The translations under genes were made by a program, and so were the position numbers. Shown here piece after piece: positions 52,275 to 59,220 of a stretch of 64,000 nt of DNA (position 1 is the first letter of the stretch; the number at the start of each line of letters is the position of its first letter). Location of the stretch: NCBI RefSeq assembly GCF_003226895.2, contig NZ_PNJG02000004.1:124001-188000 (forward strand). The letters are read 5' to 3'. The stretch is from Kocuria tytonis. GTDB lineage: Bacteria > Actinomycetota > Actinomycetes > Actinomycetales > Micrococcaceae. The notes under the pieces are model-generated. The model did no database searches. It had not been told where the DNA came from and was given only the letters and a program-made list of their open reading frames with translations.

Positions 52275-52739
52275 TCAGGCCCCCGAGACGGACGCGGCGA
52301 GCTTCTCGAGGGACTCCTCCAGGACCTTCTCGCCGAAGAGCGGGAAGCTGATCTTCTTCGTCACCTTGGGGTTGGCGTGCTCCCACGAGTAGGTGAGGGT
52401 CACGGTGGTGGAGTCCGAGCCCTCGGGCTGCAGCTCGTACATCCATTCCCAGCCGTTGTCCTCCACGGAGGTGCCCTCGGGGCAGGGCTTCCACGCGATG
52501 AGCTTGTTGGGGTCCAGACCGGTGACGTGGTTCTCCGTCTTGTAGTCCCCGCCCATCATCTCGGCGTGCATGTTCATTACGAACACGTCGCCGACGTTCT
52601 GGATGCGCTGGTCCGTGCCGGAGACCACGGTGCCGGAGGCGTCCAGGCCGGGGTGCTTGGCGGGCAGGGTCAGGACCTCGAAGATCTCCTCCGCCGGGGC
52701 GTCGATGACACGGCTGACCTTGATGCTCTTCTCACTCAC
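52275..52739 (-). CDS. SRPBCC (START-like) family protein
   Basis: A 154-residue helix-grip protein of the polyketide cyclase/dehydrase-like type, which binds a hydrophobic ligand. SRVIDAPAEEIFEVLTLPAK at the N-terminus, EWMYELQPEGSDSTTVTLTY in the sheet, and a long C-terminal helix (EKVLEESLEKLAASVSG). GGAGGT lies five bases before the GTG start. Function unknown. Confidence 0.88.
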   Translation of the reverse strand: MSEKSIKVSRVIDAPAEEIFEVLTLPAKHPGLDASGTVVSGTDQRIQNVGDVFVMNMHAEMMGGDYKTENHVTGLDPNKLIAWKPCPEGTSVEDNGWEWMYELQPEGSDSTTVTLTYSWEHANPKVTKKISFPLFGEKVLEESLEKLAASVSGA

Positions 52740-52805: not shown

Positions 52806-53591
52806 TCAAGCGTTTTTGCGGTGGGCGAAGCGTCTCGGCCCGGGCGCCCCGCAGGGGGTCTCCTCATCCTGGGCCAGCTGCGCGAGGCTCAGCAGGTGGT
52901 GCGCGAACCCCAGTTCGGCGCGGCCCTCCAACCGCCCGGAGGTGATCGCCCGGATCCGGTCCGTGGCCTCGATCCGGGCCCCGGCGGCCCGCAGCCCGGC
53001 CACCAGGGCCTCGTCCTCGCTGCACGCCACGGGCGGGTAGCCTCCCACCCGCTCGTAGAGCGCGGCACGCACACCCATGTTCGCGGCGTGGATGTGCGGG
53101 TGGCCCTCCGCGAGGGTGTGCTCGCGCTGCCACAACCGGTACACCGCTTCCGGGCACTCGACGGGGTCCGGTTCCACGGTGCCGAGAATCGCGTCCACTC
53201 CGTGGGCCGCCCGCTCCACCTGGTACGCCAGCCAGTTCCGCGGCACGGCGGTGTCCGCATCCGTGGAGGCGAGCCACTCCGGGTGCCGTCCCGCGGTCAG
53301 TGCGTGGTGCGCGGCGGCGGCACGCGCCCCGCCCGCGCTGCACCACCTCCCGGCAAACACCTCCAGCCGGGCCGCGCCCTCCGGGAGGCCCGACGCCGCC
53401 CACGCCGCCCGCGCGCGCTCCACCGTACGGTCGGTGCACGAGTCCGCGGCGAGCACCACGGTCACGGTCGGCGCGTCCTGGCCGGCGGCACCGTGCAGCG
53501 CCGTGACCGCCGCCGCCACCGAGGCCGTGCAGCGCCCCACCCGCTCCTCCTCGTTGCAGGCCGGCACGACCACGGCGAGCCGGCGGATCAC
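52806..53591 (-). CDS. Family 2 glycosyltransferase in the PIG-L/NodS-like cluster
   Basis: A 261-residue GT-A fold inverting glycosyltransferase: LAVVVPACNEEERVGRCTAS, VVLAADSCTDRTVERA, and the DxD-like ASTDADTAVPRNWL that binds the metal-nucleotide sugar. There is no membrane helix, so it is not a processive chitin or hyaluronan synthase. The GTG start overlaps the stop of the deacetylase-methyltransferase (GTGA). It should add a sugar to the molecule handled by that enzyme. Confidence 0.88.
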   Translation of the reverse strand: MIRRLAVVVPACNEEERVGRCTASVAAAVTALHGAAGQDAPTVTVVLAADSCTDRTVERARAAWAASGLPEGAARLEVFAGRWCSAGGARAAAAHHALTAGRHPEWLASTDADTAVPRNWLAYQVERAAHGVDAILGTVEPDPVECPEAVYRLWQREHTLAEGHPHIHAANMGVRAALYERVGGYPPVACSEDEALVAGLRAAGARIEATDRIRAITSGRLEGRAELGFAHHLLSLAQLAQDEETPCGAPGPRRFAHRKNA

Positions 53592-54922
53592 CGCTGCCCC
53601 CGCGGAACGGGGGCGAAGACCTCGAGGTCGAAGTCCCGTTCCCGGTGACTCACGACGCGCCGCAGGTCCGCACGCCGTCGCGCCTCACGGTGCACGTCCG
53701 CCCCGTCCAGGGGCCAGCCCTCGATGGGGTGGCGCCAGTGGCACAGCACGAGGTGGCCCTCCGGCTCCAGTGCGGCCACGCAGCGGTCGAGCAGCTCCTC
53801 CCACTGTTCGGGCGAGCAGAAGTACCCCATCTCACTGACCACGATCAGCTCCCGGCCGGCCCAGCGGTCCTCCCAGCCCGCGGGCAGCACGGCGTTGACG
53901 AGCTCCACGTTGGTCACCCCCTCGCGGTCCAGCCGGGTGCGGGCGGCCCGCAGGGCGACGTCGCTCGCGTCCACCGCGACCACGCTCCCCGCCCGCCCAG
54001 CCAGGGCCACCGTGAGGGCGCCCGTGGAGCAGCCGAGGTCCAGGACCGTGCCGTAGCGCTGCCGGGGCAGGCACCCGAGGAGCACCTCCCGCTTGCGCCG
54101 CTCGTACCAGGAGGTGTCCACGTCCCAGGGATCCTCGGCCGCCGTGTGCACGCGGTCGAACACGGTCTTCTGGTCCGGGGCGCTGAGCACGAAGAACTCC
54201 GCGGAGCGCTCGAAGTGGGCCAGCACGTGGGGGCCCAGCAGCACCTCGTCGCCGGGGCGGTCCGAGAGCGGGCGCACCTGGGTGGCGTGGTGCTCGAGGG
54301 CGGCGCGCTTGGCGGAGCGGGCGGCGTCGTCCAGCGGGATGCGCACCAGCCCGCGCGGCAGGCGCGTGGGTGAGCCCCAGTGCCAGAACCAGATGGGGAA
54401 CTGCGCGCAGCGCAGACCACGGGCACCGGCGGCGCGGGTGACGGTGCGGGCGAGGACCTCGTGGTCGGTGTGCCCGTCCCGCTCCCACGTGACGAGCACG
54501 AGGGGGTTCTCACCGCCCTGCACCCAGTCGAGGTGCTCCGCGACCGGACCCCGCAGCTCGTCCTCCGCGAGGGCGCCGTCCGTGAGCGAGAGGAAGACCG
54601 GGGCGGCCCGGTCACCGGCGAGCGCCCGGACCGCCGCCACCATCTCCCCGTGCCGCAGCTCGGCCAGCTGCTGCGGGGTGTGGGTGCTCGATCCGGGGTG
54701 GGAGTTCTCCCCGAGGGTGGCCACGACCACCCGCACCTCGGCCCCGGCACGGGCCAGCCGGTGCACCGTGCCGCCCGCACCCAAGGTCTCGTCGTCGGGG
54801 TGGGCGGCGAACACCACGGCGCGGTCCGCGCCGGTCAGCTCCAGCTCCGGGGCGCGGTGCAGGGCGCCGCAGCGGGCCCAGTCGCTCTCGGCGGTGCCGG
54901 GGTCGCGGTGGTCGAAGGTCAC
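53588..54922 (-). CDS. PIG-L deacetylase fused to a NodS-like SAM methyltransferase
   Basis: A 444-residue bifunctional protein. Residues about 30-240 are a zinc-dependent LmbE/PIG-L N-deacetylase (VFAAHPDDETLGAGGTVHRL, then HTDHEVLARTV with the third ligand). Residues about 255-440 resemble the NodS methyltransferase family: DPWDVDTSWYERRKREVLLG, VLDLGCSTGALTVALAGR as the SAM motif, and IVVSEMGYFCSPEQWEEL. NodS N-methylates the deacetylated sugar of rhizobial Nod factors, so deacetylation followed by methylation of the freed amine is a natural reading. The GTG at 54922 overlaps the upstream stop. Confidence 0.87.
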   Translation of the reverse strand: MTFDHRDPGTAESDWARCGALHRAPELELTGADRAVVFAAHPDDETLGAGGTVHRLARAGAEVRVVVATLGENSHPGSSTHTPQQLAELRHGEMVAAVRALAGDRAAPVFLSLTDGALAEDELRGPVAEHLDWVQGGENPLVLVTWERDGHTDHEVLARTVTRAAGARGLRCAQFPIWFWHWGSPTRLPRGLVRIPLDDAARSAKRAALEHHATQVRPLSDRPGDEVLLGPHVLAHFERSAEFFVLSAPDQKTVFDRVHTAAEDPWDVDTSWYERRKREVLLGCLPRQRYGTVLDLGCSTGALTVALAGRAGSVVAVDASDVALRAARTRLDREGVTNVELVNAVLPAGWEDRWAGRELIVVSEMGYFCSPEQWEELLDRCVAALEPEGHLVLCHWRHPIEGWPLDGADVHREARRRADLRRVVSHRERDFDLEVFAPVPRGQR

Positions 54923-56220
54923 CACGGTGTGTCCTCGGGGTGCGCGGTGCCGCCCTCCCGCGGGATGTCCGTGGCGCGCTCGGGGTGGGTGCTGCCCCCG
55001 GCGCGGGCGGTGTCCTCGGCGAGCGCCAGCAGGGCGCGCCCCAGTGCCGCGGTGTCCCGTTCGGCGTGGTCCTGGCGGATGTAGACCTGCAGGGACTCCA
55101 CGCGGCGGATGTGCGCGGGGTCCCCGGTGAGCGGCCCCGGCCCCGTGGCGCGGGAGACCACGCGGACCACGGTCTCGGCGGCGTCGGCCACGGTGCGGCG
55201 CACGCGCAGGGCCCAGGCGGCGCCGACCTGCCCGGCGGCGTCGCCGTGGTCCACGGCCACCGCGGCGCGCTCCAGCACGGCGCGGGCCGCGCCGAGGGTG
55301 AGGTCCAGCTGTCCGAGGGCGGTCAGGGCGGCGTCGTCCACCGGGCGGCGGGGATGGCGCAGCTGGTCCCAGAGCAGGTCCGCGACGGCCTGTGCGCCGC
55401 CCAGCCAGATCGCGGCAACCCCCATGCCGCCCCACGCGAAACCGGGGCGGGTCAGGTACCACTCGTCCGCACCGAGCGGCTCGGCGGGGACGTCCTCGAA
55501 CGTGACGGGCACGGTCACGACCTCCGCGAGCCCGTGCGACGCCCACTGCGTGACGGGTGCGGGCCGGAATCCGGGGTGGTCGGTGGCGACCACGAACGTC
55601 CGCCGGTGGCCGGTGGGCGCACCGTTCTCGTCCGCGACGTGCGCGGTCACGATCGCGCGGGACACCGCGTCCGCGAGCGAGCACCACGGCTTGGTGCCGG
55701 TGAGCGTCCAGGTGGCGGCCGGGCGGTCGTCCGCCGCGGAGGCACCGGGCGACGACGTGCGCGCCGCTCCCTCGCTCCCATCCCCCGTGAGCCCACCCGG
55801 TTCCACGGACGACGACGCCGTACCGCCCTGGCCCGCCCCACGGTCCCGGTCCGGCACGGCGTCCTGGTCCGGCCCGCGGTCCCGCCCGGGCGCCGTGGGC
55901 GTGGCCAGCAGCGGCTCTCCCGGCCCCTCGGCGGCCCACACGGCCCACGTGTCCTGGGTAGTGACGAGGTCCTCACGACCGGCCTGGCGCAGGATGGCTA
56001 GGGCGTCCAGGTGGGGCTCGATGATGCGGGCGTGCGCGAGGTCGGCGCGGCCCAGGGCGCTCAGTGCGCGCCACAGCTCGGGCGTGGCACCCTCCCCCGG
56101 GAAGGGGAGCTGCCTGCCGAGGTCCCGGGCCCGGTCCAGGGCGTGGTCGGTGAAGCGCCGGACGGCCTGCGCGTCCGGGGCGGCACCGGCAGGAATGGGA
56201 AGGTCAGCATGCTCGGACAC
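54919..56220 (-). CDS. Acyl-CoA dehydrogenase-like protein in the PIG-L/NodS-like cluster
   Basis: A 433-residue member of the acyl-CoA dehydrogenase fold (FAD enzymes acting on acyl thioesters), divergent: WTLTGTKPWCSLADAVSRAI resembles the flavin-binding middle domain, and a helical C-terminal domain follows. An inserted linker of about 55 residues (roughly 120-175, GRDRGPDQDAVPDRDRG and onward) interrupts the N-terminal half and carries the decamer at 55811. I use the GTG at 56220, seven bases after a TAGGCT box; GTG codons at 56226 and 56253 are alternatives. First gene of the trio. Confidence 0.78.
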   Translation of the reverse strand: MSEHADLPIPAGAAPDAQAVRRFTDHALDRARDLGRQLPFPGEGATPELWRALSALGRADLAHARIIEPHLDALAILRQAGREDLVTTQDTWAVWAAEGPGEPLLATPTAPGRDRGPDQDAVPDRDRGAGQGGTASSSVEPGGLTGDGSEGAARTSSPGASAADDRPAATWTLTGTKPWCSLADAVSRAIVTAHVADENGAPTGHRRTFVVATDHPGFRPAPVTQWASHGLAEVVTVPVTFEDVPAEPLGADEWYLTRPGFAWGGMGVAAIWLGGAQAVADLLWDQLRHPRRPVDDAALTALGQLDLTLGAARAVLERAAVAVDHGDAAGQVGAAWALRVRRTVADAAETVVRVVSRATGPGPLTGDPAHIRRVESLQVYIRQDHAERDTAALGRALLALAEDTARAGGSTHPERATDIPREGGTAHPEDTPW

Positions 56221-56227
56221 GACCACA

Positions 56228-56233
56228 AGCCTA
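56228..56233 (-). promoter_or_regulatory. -10 box for a leaderless mRNA of the trio
   Basis: TAGGCT on the minus strand, seven bases before the GTG at 56220. Confidence 0.4.
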
Positions 56234-56249
56234 CGTGCAGTGCCGGGCC

Positions 56250-56274
56250 GCACCTGGTGCGCAGGCCACCGGTG
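56250..56274. promoter_or_regulatory. Pair of small dyads in the divergent GntR region
   Basis: GCACC-T-GGTGC (56250-56260) and CACCGGTG (about 56267-56274) share CACC/GGTG halves and lie between the GntR gene and the trio. They are candidate operators. Confidence 0.35.
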
Positions 56275-56317
56275 CCGCGGGTCCTACGATGAGGGCACAC
56301 GACGGAAAGGCTCACCC

Positions 56318-56686
56318 ATGTTCACGGTCGACCCCCACTCCACAACCCCGGTGTACGAGCAGCTCGTGGAGTGCGTGCTGCGGGACGTCGCCGGCGGGGA
56401 GCTCGTGGTGGGAGACCGCATCCCACCCGTGCGGACCCTCGCCGGGGAGCTCGGACTGGCCGCGGGAACCGTGGCCAAGGCCTACAAGGAGATGGAGGCC
56501 CGCGGTGTGATCGAGACCCGCGGCCGCGCGGGCACGTTCATCGCCCAGAGCCGTGACGACCGCGAGACCGCCGCGGCCCGGGCCGCCGCCCGCTACCTGG
56601 ACGAGGTGGCCGGGCAGCTGCACTACTCCCCGCAGCAGTGCGTGGCGCTCGTGGAGCGGGCGGTGCGCAAGCGCGCGGGGGACTGA
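56318..56686 (+). CDS. GntR-family regulator, YtrA/YhcF type
   Basis: A 122-residue short GntR protein: winged helix TPVYEQLVECVLRDVAGGEL, then GDRIPPVRTLAGELGLAAGT and YKEMEARGVIETRGRAGTFI, followed by a C-terminal helical stub instead of a large ligand domain. GGAAAGG lies seven bases before the ATG. YtrA-type members usually regulate an adjacent operon; here the divergent deacetylase-methyltransferase trio is the likely target. Confidence 0.9.
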   Translation: MFTVDPHSTTPVYEQLVECVLRDVAGGELVVGDRIPPVRTLAGELGLAAGTVAKAYKEMEARGVIETRGRAGTFIAQSRDDRETAAARAAARYLDEVAGQLHYSPQQCVALVERAVRKRAGD

Positions 56687-57209: not shown

Positions 57210-57806
57210 GTGGTCACCCCCGCGGGTCCTCGCTTCGACACGGTGATCGTGGCCGGGGGCCACTCCTCTCGGCTCGGCGGCACACCCAAGGCGCAGCTGC
57301 CCGTGGCCGGCTCCACGCTGCTGGCCCGCACGGTGGAGGCGGTGCTGCCCTTCGGCACCGTGGTGGTCGTGGGCCCCGAGGATCCCACCCTGCCCGCCCG
57401 GGTGCTGCACACCCGTGAGGACCCCCCGTTCTCGGGCCCGGCCGCCGGGGTGGCTGCGGGCGTCGTCGCCCTGGCACCCGTGGCGGACCGCCGGGACTGG
57501 ACGGCCGTGCTGGCGTGCGACATGCCCGGCGTGGACCGCGCGCTCCCGGTCCTCCTCGCGGCGGCCGGGCGGGCGGCGTCGGACGTGGACGGGGTGATCG
57601 CGACGTCGCGGGAGGGGCGCCGGGAGAACCTCGCGGTGCTGGTCCGCACGGGCGCGCTGACCCGCGTGCTCGCGGAAGTGCCCACGGCGGACGCGTCCGT
57701 GCGCTCCGTGTGGCGCCGGCTGCGGCTCCAGGAGACCCCCGTCCCCGAGGACAGCACCGCGGACGTGGATACGTGGGAGGATGTTCGCAGGCTCGATCTG
57801 TACTGA
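57210..57806 (+). CDS. mobA: Molybdenum cofactor guanylyltransferase (MobA-like)
   Basis: Attaches GMP to molybdopterin to give the bis-MGD or MGD form. The 198 residues have the nucleotidyltransferase loop VIVAGGHSSRLGGTPKAQLP, the acceptor motif FSGPAAGVAAGV and the metal Asp in VLACDMPGVDRAL. The GTG start, without a ribosome site, lies four bases after the upstream stop, which suggests translational coupling. A MoeA-like gene follows. Confidence 0.83.
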   Translation: MVTPAGPRFDTVIVAGGHSSRLGGTPKAQLPVAGSTLLARTVEAVLPFGTVVVVGPEDPTLPARVLHTREDPPFSGPAAGVAAGVVALAPVADRRDWTAVLACDMPGVDRALPVLLAAAGRAASDVDGVIATSREGRRENLAVLVRTGALTRVLAEVPTADASVRSVWRRLRLQETPVPEDSTADVDTWEDVRRLDLY

Positions 57807-57828
57807 ATCAGCACGCTGAGGAGACATG

Positions 57829-59220
57829 ATGCCCGGACTTCCGCACCCGCACGACCCCTCCGTCCGCGAGGACGAGGACCAGCCGCAGCACCGCGGTGAA
57901 ACTCCGGAGTCCACCGTGCGCTGGGCGCAGTGGGACGAGGCGCGGCGGCTGGCGTACGGCGTCCCGCAGCCGCTGCCCAACATCCTCCTGCCGCTCGCGC
58001 AGTGCCTGGACGAGACCCTCGCGGAGTCCGTGACCGCCGAGATGCCGGTGCCCCACTACGCCTCCGCGGCCGAGGACGGCTGGGCCGTGGCCGGTGAGGG
58101 ACCGTGGCGCATCCGCACCCCGCAGCCCGCGGAGACTGACGAGCGGCTGCTGCTGACCCTGCCCCCGGACCGGCGGATGCTGCCGGTGGTGGAGCTCACG
58201 CCCGGTGAGGCCACCCACGTGAACAGCGGGGACCCGGTGCCCTACGGAACGCGTGCCCTGCTGGAGGCCCACCGCGGCCATGTGGTTCCCGCCGACCCCC
58301 ACGCCGAGGTTCCCGAGGGCACGGAGCACGGTCGCAAGGCCGTCGAAGGGGACACCCTGGAGGACGCCACCCCCGCAGCCGCCCTCGTGAAGAACCAGGG
58401 CGTCCGCGCGGTGGGTGAGGAGATCGAGCAGGGAGACCTGCTGCTGCGCGCGGGCCGCCGGCTCAACCCGGTGCACCTGGGCCTCGCGGCGAGCGCCGGC
58501 CACGATATGCTCCCCGTGCGCCGCCGCCCGCGCGTCACCGTGCTGCTCGGCTTCACCAACATGGTGGAGGACGGCATTCCTGGTCCCGGCGAGGTCCGGG
58601 ACTCGCTCGGGCTGCAGCTGCCCGCCGTGCTGCGGGAGCTGGGCGCGAACGTGGACCAGGTCCGCCGCGTGGCCGACGGCTCCGACGGCATGGTGCATGC
58701 CCTGACAGAGTCCCCCATGGGCGCCAACTCCCTGTTGGACGCGCGCGTCGAGATGGTGGTCACCACGGGCGGCACCGGTCACGGGGAGGACGACCACGTG
58801 CGGCAGGCGCTCGAGGAGCTCGACGCCCACCTCATCCTGGACGGTGTGGCCCAGGAACCGGCCCACGGCGTGATCCTCGCGCAGCTGCCGGACGACGGTC
58901 CCGTGGTGCTGGCCCTGCCCGGCTCCCCGCTGAGCGCCATGACCGGCCTGCTCACCGTGGGCCACGCGCTGATCGCCGGAGCCACGGGTGAGACCCTGCC
59001 GCTGACCCGGCGCGTCACCGCGGGCCGGGCACTTGAGCCCACGGGTCACACCCGCGTGATCCCCGCCTACATCCAGGACGGCCGGGTGATCCCGGAACCC
59101 GCCGTGGGCCCGGCCATGCTCTCGGGTCTCGCCCACGCGGACGTGCTGCTAGTGGTCCCGGAGGACGGGATGCACGCGGGTCAGGACATGGAGGTCGTCC
59201 CGCTGCCCTGGCGGGCGTGA
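57829..59220 (+). CDS. MoeA-like molybdopterin molybdotransferase, divergent
   Basis: A 463-residue MoeA-fold protein. Recognisable pieces are YASAAEDGWAVAG (for SAMDGYAV, catalytic Asp kept), THVNSGDPVPYGTRALLEAH (for GEAMRIMTGAPLP), TTGGTGHGEDDHVRQALEEL (for SGGVSVGDYD) and LALPGSPLSAMTGLLTVGHA (for GLPGNPVSA). The wording is degenerate compared with standard MoeA, so it may be a paralogue with an altered role. GAGGAG favours the second of two adjacent ATGs. No other cofactor-synthesis genes are in the window. Confidence 0.78.
   Translation: MPGLPHPHDPSVREDEDQPQHRGETPESTVRWAQWDEARRLAYGVPQPLPNILLPLAQCLDETLAESVTAEMPVPHYASAAEDGWAVAGEGPWRIRTPQPAETDERLLLTLPPDRRMLPVVELTPGEATHVNSGDPVPYGTRALLEAHRGHVVPADPHAEVPEGTEHGRKAVEGDTLEDATPAAALVKNQGVRAVGEEIEQGDLLLRAGRRLNPVHLGLAASAGHDMLPVRRRPRVTVLLGFTNMVEDGIPGPGEVRDSLGLQLPAVLRELGANVDQVRRVADGSDGMVHALTESPMGANSLLDARVEMVVTTGGTGHGEDDHVRQALEELDAHLILDGVAQEPAHGVILAQLPDDGPVVLALPGSPLSAMTGLLTVGHALIAGATGETLPLTRRVTAGRALEPTGHTRVIPAYIQDGRVIPEPAVGPAMLSGLAHADVLLVVPEDGMHAGQDMEVVPLPWRA

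Follow-up and report, generated by a model that had tools for sequence, protein, structure and literature searches.

Three overlapping genes of Kocuria tytonis, flanked by a divergent regulator gene, raise the question of whether the enzymes they encode act together in one pathway and, if so, on what kind of product. The window analysed is the whole stretch of 64,000 nucleotides in which they lie; the features under study are listed in Table 1. As read from the sequence, the genes are found on the minus strand, in the order flavoprotein, deacetylase/methyltransferase fusion, glycosyltransferase, with 4-base GTGA overlaps at both junctions. Sequence, Pfam and conservation all indicate that this trio, overlaps and divergent short GntR gene included, is real, as stated in the preliminary description. 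The first gene, encoding a flavoprotein of acyl-CoA dehydrogenase (ACAD) fold, has a GTG start at either 56220 or 56226, in a frame open up to 56253; about 95 bp separate it from the divergent start. Positions 54001-56000 are the local G+C peak of the window (0.770) and contain several long spurious ORFs: those antisense to the trio, with an open frame of up to 794 codons, are discarded as an artefact of the G+C content of about 77%.

Table 1. Features of the locus, with positions in the window, strand and basis of the assignment
Feature	Position	Strand	Basis
ACAD-fold flavoprotein, first gene of the trio	54919..56220 (about)	-	sequence, Pfam, profile, model, tree
PIG-L (CE14) N-deacetylase / NodS-like SAM methyltransferase fusion	53588..54922	-	Pfam, motifs, model, tree
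GT2 glycosyltransferase, 261 aa	52806..53591	-	Pfam, motifs
GntR-type (YtrA-like) short regulator, 122 aa	56318..56686	+	Pfam; divergent from the trio
Intergenic region separating the divergent starts	56221..56317	.	sequence comparison among Kocuria copies
SRPBCC-domain gene downstream of the trio	52275..52739	-	Pfam, neighbourhood comparison

The family of the glycosyltransferase and its intact motifs are evident from the sequence. The protein scores 45.6 bits with PF00535 (cut-off 23.3) and carries both a DXD motif (TDADT) and an acidic base motif (SEDE), which place it in GT2. In 67 relatives, T110 and D111 are conserved in 100%, D113 in 98%, E192 and D193 in 88%. By inspection, the protein has no long hydrophobic stretch; when examined as a NodC-type chitooligosaccharide synthase, it matches no NodC model, but PF00535 only.

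In the fusion protein, the deacetylase domain spans residues from about 30 to 240 and is assigned to PIG-L (CE14) by its PF02585 score (80.5 bits, cut-off 28.2), together with the AHPDDE and HxDH motifs, the latter within D-GHTDH (metal/base). The motif residues H41, D43, D44, D149, H151, D153 and H154 are 95–100% conserved in 75 relatives. The domain is PF02585 instead of the NodB family (CE4, PF01522), and its scores with MshB and BshB are far under the cut-off. The methyltransferase domain, from about residue 255 to 440, includes the motif DPWDVDTSWYE; it exceeds the gathering score of PF05401 (40.8 vs 24.0 bits), while scoring 41.5 bits against the 300 required by the NCBIfam NodS equivalog, NF041650. 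Structure prediction, already proposed for both domains, gives for the fusion (deacetylase and METHYLTRANSFERASE) an AlphaFold model with pLDDT 88, whose fold matches are 4isc, LnmX, NodS (3ofk), BC1534, chitobiose deacetylase and MshB. The PIG-L domain resembles LnmX, BC1534 and MshB, and the closest PIG-L folds are sugar N-deacetylases. For the methyltransferase domain, the closest solved relative is 4isc, a structural genomics entry from Pseudomonas syringae recorded as putative methyltransferase only (38% identity, TM 0.90), while the closest characterised match is NodS (3ofk, TM 0.77).

The gene-neighbourhood survey suggested in the preliminary description shows that the set is widespread across phyla, not peculiar to the K. 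tytonis genome. The Kocuria trio is the local form of a module composed of an ACAD-fold flavoprotein, a PIG-L deacetylase, a NodS-like methyltransferase and a GT2 (the quartet), present in Actinomycetota, alpha-, beta- and gammaproteobacteria, Deinococcus and cyanobacteria; the Kocuria form has its deacetylase and methyltransferase in one protein, and plasmid copies encode them as separate genes. Other Kocuria keep the trio at 77–79% identity, and the nearest named relatives of the fusion protein, from Kocuria marina and K. rhizophila, fall in the same range at the protein level; the first 24 relatives searched all belong to this genus. Citricoccus, Glutamicibacter, Arthrobacter, Pseudoclavibacter, Gordonia and Micrococcus have the trio in the same order, at 40–47% identity. 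When the fusion alone is used as query, flavoprotein and glycosyltransferase adjoin it in all 13 loci examined, from seven actinobacterial genera. The fusion is found in 70 of the 395 genomes sampled from the class (34 genera out of 138). In 51 of the 54 actinobacterial genomes with a flavoprotein match, this lies within 3 kb of the PIG-L/methyltransferase gene, and two of the three exceptions are split over contigs.

On plasmids, 60 records match the PIG-L/methyltransferase query, from Acinetobacter to Deinococcus, Sulfitobacter, Bradyrhizobium and Nostoc. The four activities occur together, mostly in the order ACAD, PIG-L, methyltransferase, GT; four genes in the same order are found in Pandoraea, Acinetobacter, Sulfitobacter, Comamonas, Legionella and others. 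The flavoprotein alone retrieves 30 records from 8 genera, all of them also among the PIG-L/methyltransferase matches, with equal genus counts; the 20 of these 30 for which positions are listed fit the quartet.

A chance or artefactual arrangement of four unrelated tailoring genes could be suspected, given the breadth of the enzyme families and the many spurious ORFs produced by high G+C. The order is kept, however, across many genera and phyla, the adjacency described above holds in 51 of 54 genomes, and the pairwise divergences of the four proteins are correlated (Spearman 0.48–0.70). Chance gene order is thus rejected on conserved order and adjacency, and we regard this explanation as having a practically negligible probability.

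One rearranged copy is found on a plasmid of D. radiodurans (L043:1178-3517), where an ACAD of the quartet type carries an N-terminal extension of about 400 residues without Pfam match; a GT domain was looked for in this long N-terminal part and not found. A helicase gene separates the ACAD fusion from the methyltransferase gene.

The flanking genes behave differently from the module. The GntR gene, which is supported by Pfam (46.8 bits, cut-off 27) and scores 92.9 bits with the Rv1152 family (cut-off 170), lies beside the trio in part of Kocuria only: it was not found at the Kocuria loci L012-L014, nor in other genera. An intergenic block, 'gcctacgtg', is common to the Kocuria copies, and no clear long palindrome is seen in the intergenic region. 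The gene had been described as the trio's own regulator; being absent from other loci, and lacking a clear operator palindrome, it is rejected as a dedicated one. Nor is the SRPBCC gene retained as a fourth member, since it is kept regardless of the trio: it is present in 20 of 26 Kocuria genomes, several of them without the trio. Both genes are neighbours, not members. Past the GntR gene, positions 57210-59220 contain MobA-like and MoeA-like molybdenum-cofactor genes, both under the NCBIfam cut-offs shown.

The first enzyme of the trio had been called acyl-CoA dehydrogenase-like, an activity that it probably does not possess. Its ACAD domains stay under the Pfam cut-offs (PF02770, 27.1 vs 33.3; PF00441, 21.0 vs 22.4). 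The glutamate of acyl-CoA dehydrogenases, searched for at the EGT site and at the alternative helix position, is missing: in 20 of 20 quartet flavoproteins the EGT site is replaced by a Y-L-R-Q region, while in the alignment EGT-type reference ACADs carry Glu there. With a profile built from these 20 proteins, the best matches are DszC, the 5gj7/5z8t proteins, MsuC, TdsC and KijD3 (1.8e-21 to 8e-19); true acyl-CoA dehydrogenases come next, at about 2e-17 to 5e-16 and lower. Among the same 20 proteins, SfnB is matched in NCBIfam by 14 and DszC by 5, with cut-offs not reached where scores are shown.

The ACAD fold is shared by group D flavin monooxygenases (DszC, MsuC, XiaF) and by amino-sugar N-oxygenases (KijD3, ORF36, DnmZ). 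Group D oxygenases use reduced flavin supplied by a reductase, and include the sugar N-oxygenases KijD3 and DnmZ (PMC5481743). Like DszC, the flavoprotein lacks the catalytic Glu and keeps a His (H81, 98% conserved) and a flavin-side Ser (S192). Unlike group D enzymes and N-oxygenases, it features a C-terminal Y-(L/I)-R-Q motif, has no flavin reductase gene as a regular companion in the loci read, and forms a clade of its own: in the tree, quartet flavoproteins group together (100/100), apart from the Glu-bearing ACADs (100/100) and outside the oxygenase branch, nested in neither group. The model (pLDDT 76) leaves oxygenases and dehydrogenases tied in both Foldseek and VIA-align (Z 28.5–30).

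The missing Glu and the profile ranking make oxygenase-like chemistry, an oxidation or N-oxidation, likelier than fatty-acyl desaturation, and single out a group of proteins that, although annotated as acyl-CoA dehydrogenases, probably no longer have this activity. The ACAD fold and the database annotation would also suit a true acyl-CoA or acyl-carrier dehydrogenase, desaturating a fatty chain that would afterwards decorate the amino sugar, to give a lipo-glycoside closer to a Nod factor. To the sub-threshold Pfam scores, the Glu absent in 20 of 20 but present in EGT-type references, and the oxygenases outscoring dehydrogenases, must be added that an acyltransferase, ligase or carrier belongs to the set at none of the loci read: this version appears very doubtful. 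Because the flavoprotein is probably no acyl-CoA dehydrogenase, the acylation, or lipid, leg of the earlier analogy with Nod factors is left unsupported.

The methyltransferase lends support to that analogy. A DPW...YE motif, ahead of the SAM core and thus outside the SAM-binding part, is present in 22 of 22 quartet methyltransferases, in 5 of 5 NodS proteins and in one trifunctional protein. This motif and the PF05401 family are common to the quartet methyltransferases and NodS; NodS itself forms its own clade (100/100), quartet enzymes being split from NodS plus the trifunctional protein with 80/89 support. A placement of NodS within the quartet methyltransferases finds no support in the tree.

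Two natural rearrangements bear on the chemistry. In Rubrobacter, and only there, a CE4 (NodB-family) deacetylase gene occupies the usual place of PIG-L; in Gloeothece, GT2, NodS-like and CE4 domains are found in a single protein. These support deacetylation followed by methylation and, together with the Kocuria fusion, which suggests that both steps occur on one substrate, lead us to infer that the methyl group would go to the freed amine; the methyltransferase could instead act on O or another group. Glycosyl transfer, N-deacetylation and N-methylation, the logic first proposed for the locus, thus remain the best reading, given the DPW...YE motif, the NodS fold match and the Rubrobacter swap. 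As families, PIG-L (CE14) and NodB (CE4) are different. The Rubrobacter copy, on a plasmid (L076:5957-10608), also has the gene of a pyridine-nucleotide FAD oxidoreductase lying among those of the set. The Gloeothece protein, likewise plasmid-encoded (L125:5967-9443), amounts to Nod-like chemistry in one cyanobacterial polypeptide.

The genes found near the set give indications of its role. Of 33 matches to the long (Catalase_C) catalase, 6 are no more than 12 kb away from the set, against 0.15 expected (Poisson 1.6e-8, a value that takes no account of the relatedness of the genomes). Such a catalase is near the set also in Acinetobacter, Sulfitobacter, Cupriavidus, Arthrobacter and Glutamicibacter, and catalase or otsA/otsB genes recur in other phyla: otsA and otsB flank the set in Comamonas, and in Legionella it follows otsB and a GH65 gene. 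Neither a catalase nor a trehalose gene was found beside the trio in the Kocuria copy. The Comamonas copy is on a plasmid (L075:4985-9953), where the entire quartet is embedded, with ends that overlap, in the otsA-otsB trehalose operon.

For A. baumannii, ACICU_02432-02435 are given as a single operon, with expression 31- to 62-fold lower in colistin-dependent mutants (PMC5660220); the DUF2171 gene ACICU_02436 falls together with them (PMC5660220; PMC6330354), and the set adjoins blsA (PMC6240043, PMC9020721). The segment ACICU_02431-02436 thus features an operon and a very highly expressed DUF2171 gene, strongly co-regulated, next to a blue-light receptor gene; a BLUF gene is also near the Bradyrhizobium copy (L037:660-1091). 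Clustering with catalase and trehalose genes, and co-regulation of the operon in Acinetobacter, make it likely that the product is a stress metabolite.

The strong change of the Acinetobacter operon in LPS-deficient, colistin-dependent strains (PMC5660220) may alternatively be taken as a sign that the target of the set is a glycan or glycolipid of the cell surface and not a soluble metabolite, GT2 and deacetylase chemistry being common in envelope glycans. Yet the four proteins all appear to be soluble, genes for a flippase, a polymerase or export do not recur beside the set, and the bacteria that have it differ greatly in their envelopes; a role in the envelope is therefore judged quite improbable. 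Processing of xenobiotics or damaged metabolites, by a PIG-L enzyme similar to mycothiol conjugate amidase with methyltransferase, GT and oxygenase, would agree with the frequency of group D oxygenases in xenobiotic metabolism (PMC5481743) and with the efflux pumps near the set in Sulfitobacter, Roseomonas and Comamonas. Such detoxification is considered unlikely, in view of a four-gene composition fixed across several phyla, of recurrent neighbours that are catalase and trehalose genes, of PIG-L folds closest to sugar N-deacetylases, and of the polysaccharide-deacetylase family member in the place of PIG-L in Rubrobacter.

For a biosynthetic module with four activities, the following scheme is proposed. 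The sequences establish the enzyme families, their intact motifs, the lost Glu, the conservation of the gene set and its clustering with catalase genes; the substrates, the sequence of reactions, the nitrogen as acceptor of the methyl group, the oxygenase chemistry and the role in the cell are the conjectural part. The soluble GT2 would transfer to a small acceptor an N-acetylated amino sugar whose donor is probably UDP-GlcNAc or a related compound; the N-acetyl group would be stripped by the PIG-L domain, and the freed amine methylated, with SAM, by the fused NodS-like domain. The flavoprotein, more likely a DszC/KijD3-type flavin oxygenase than an acyl-CoA dehydrogenase, would then oxidise the product, possibly at the amine nitrogen. 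The outcome would be a small amino-sugar glycoside, N-methylated and perhaps N-oxidised, that cells produce when stressed or not growing. We give this general scheme, from glycosyl transfer to flavin oxidation of a small stress-made glycoside, about an even chance. A bolder version, in which distant bacteria share a class of N-methylated, N-oxidised (hydroxylamine- or nitrone-like) amino-sugar glycosides as stress metabolites, through a four-enzyme pathway combining mycothiol-type deacetylation, Nod-type N-methylation and nitrososynthase-type N-oxidation, is offered tentatively, as rather unlikely in all its parts together.

The enzyme families are known, while their combination is without description in the literature searched: no paper was found that treats it as a pathway, and it figures only in lists of genes and maps of gene neighbourhoods for Acinetobacter. 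Reports on DksA, Tol 5 and R. etli stress do not include the set, and nothing specific was found in those on TrmB and motility. A fixed four-enzyme set, on chromosomes and plasmids of several phyla, points to a so far unrecognised metabolite made by many environmental bacteria, whose proposed role in stress survival is testable, given the long catalases, the trehalose genes and the co-regulation in Acinetobacter. The set also shows that bacteria other than symbionts possess the chemistry of Nod factors (GT2, deacetylase, NodS-type methyltransferase).

Among known systems, the Nod-factor core (NodC, NodB, NodS) features the same three activities as the module, with a GT2 and a PF05401 methyltransferase bearing the DPW...YE motif in both. 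In the module, however, PIG-L takes the place of the CE4 NodB, a small soluble GT that of the membrane chitin synthase NodC; NodA is absent, a flavoprotein is added, and NodS belongs to a separate clade. The preliminary description was accordingly right in stating that this is not a Nod system itself, in agreement with the results for the NodC model, PIG-L and the NodS equivalog. Gloeothece CYAN7822_RS28080 (GT2 / NodS-like / polysaccharide deacetylase) combines the three activities in one polypeptide, but differs from the module in its CE4 deacetylase, in having no flavoprotein and in adjoining surface-protein and polysaccharide genes. Mycothiol and bacillithiol synthesis (MshA-MshB, BshA-BshB) likewise proceeds by glycosyl transfer and PIG-L N-deacetylation of a GlcNAc glycoside, and likewise yields a small protective metabolite; in the module, by contrast, the glycosyltransferase is GT2, not GT4, there is no cysteine ligase, and the further steps are NodS-like methylation and the action of a flavin enzyme. 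The module resembles both Nod-factor and mycothiol chemistry, and belongs to neither.
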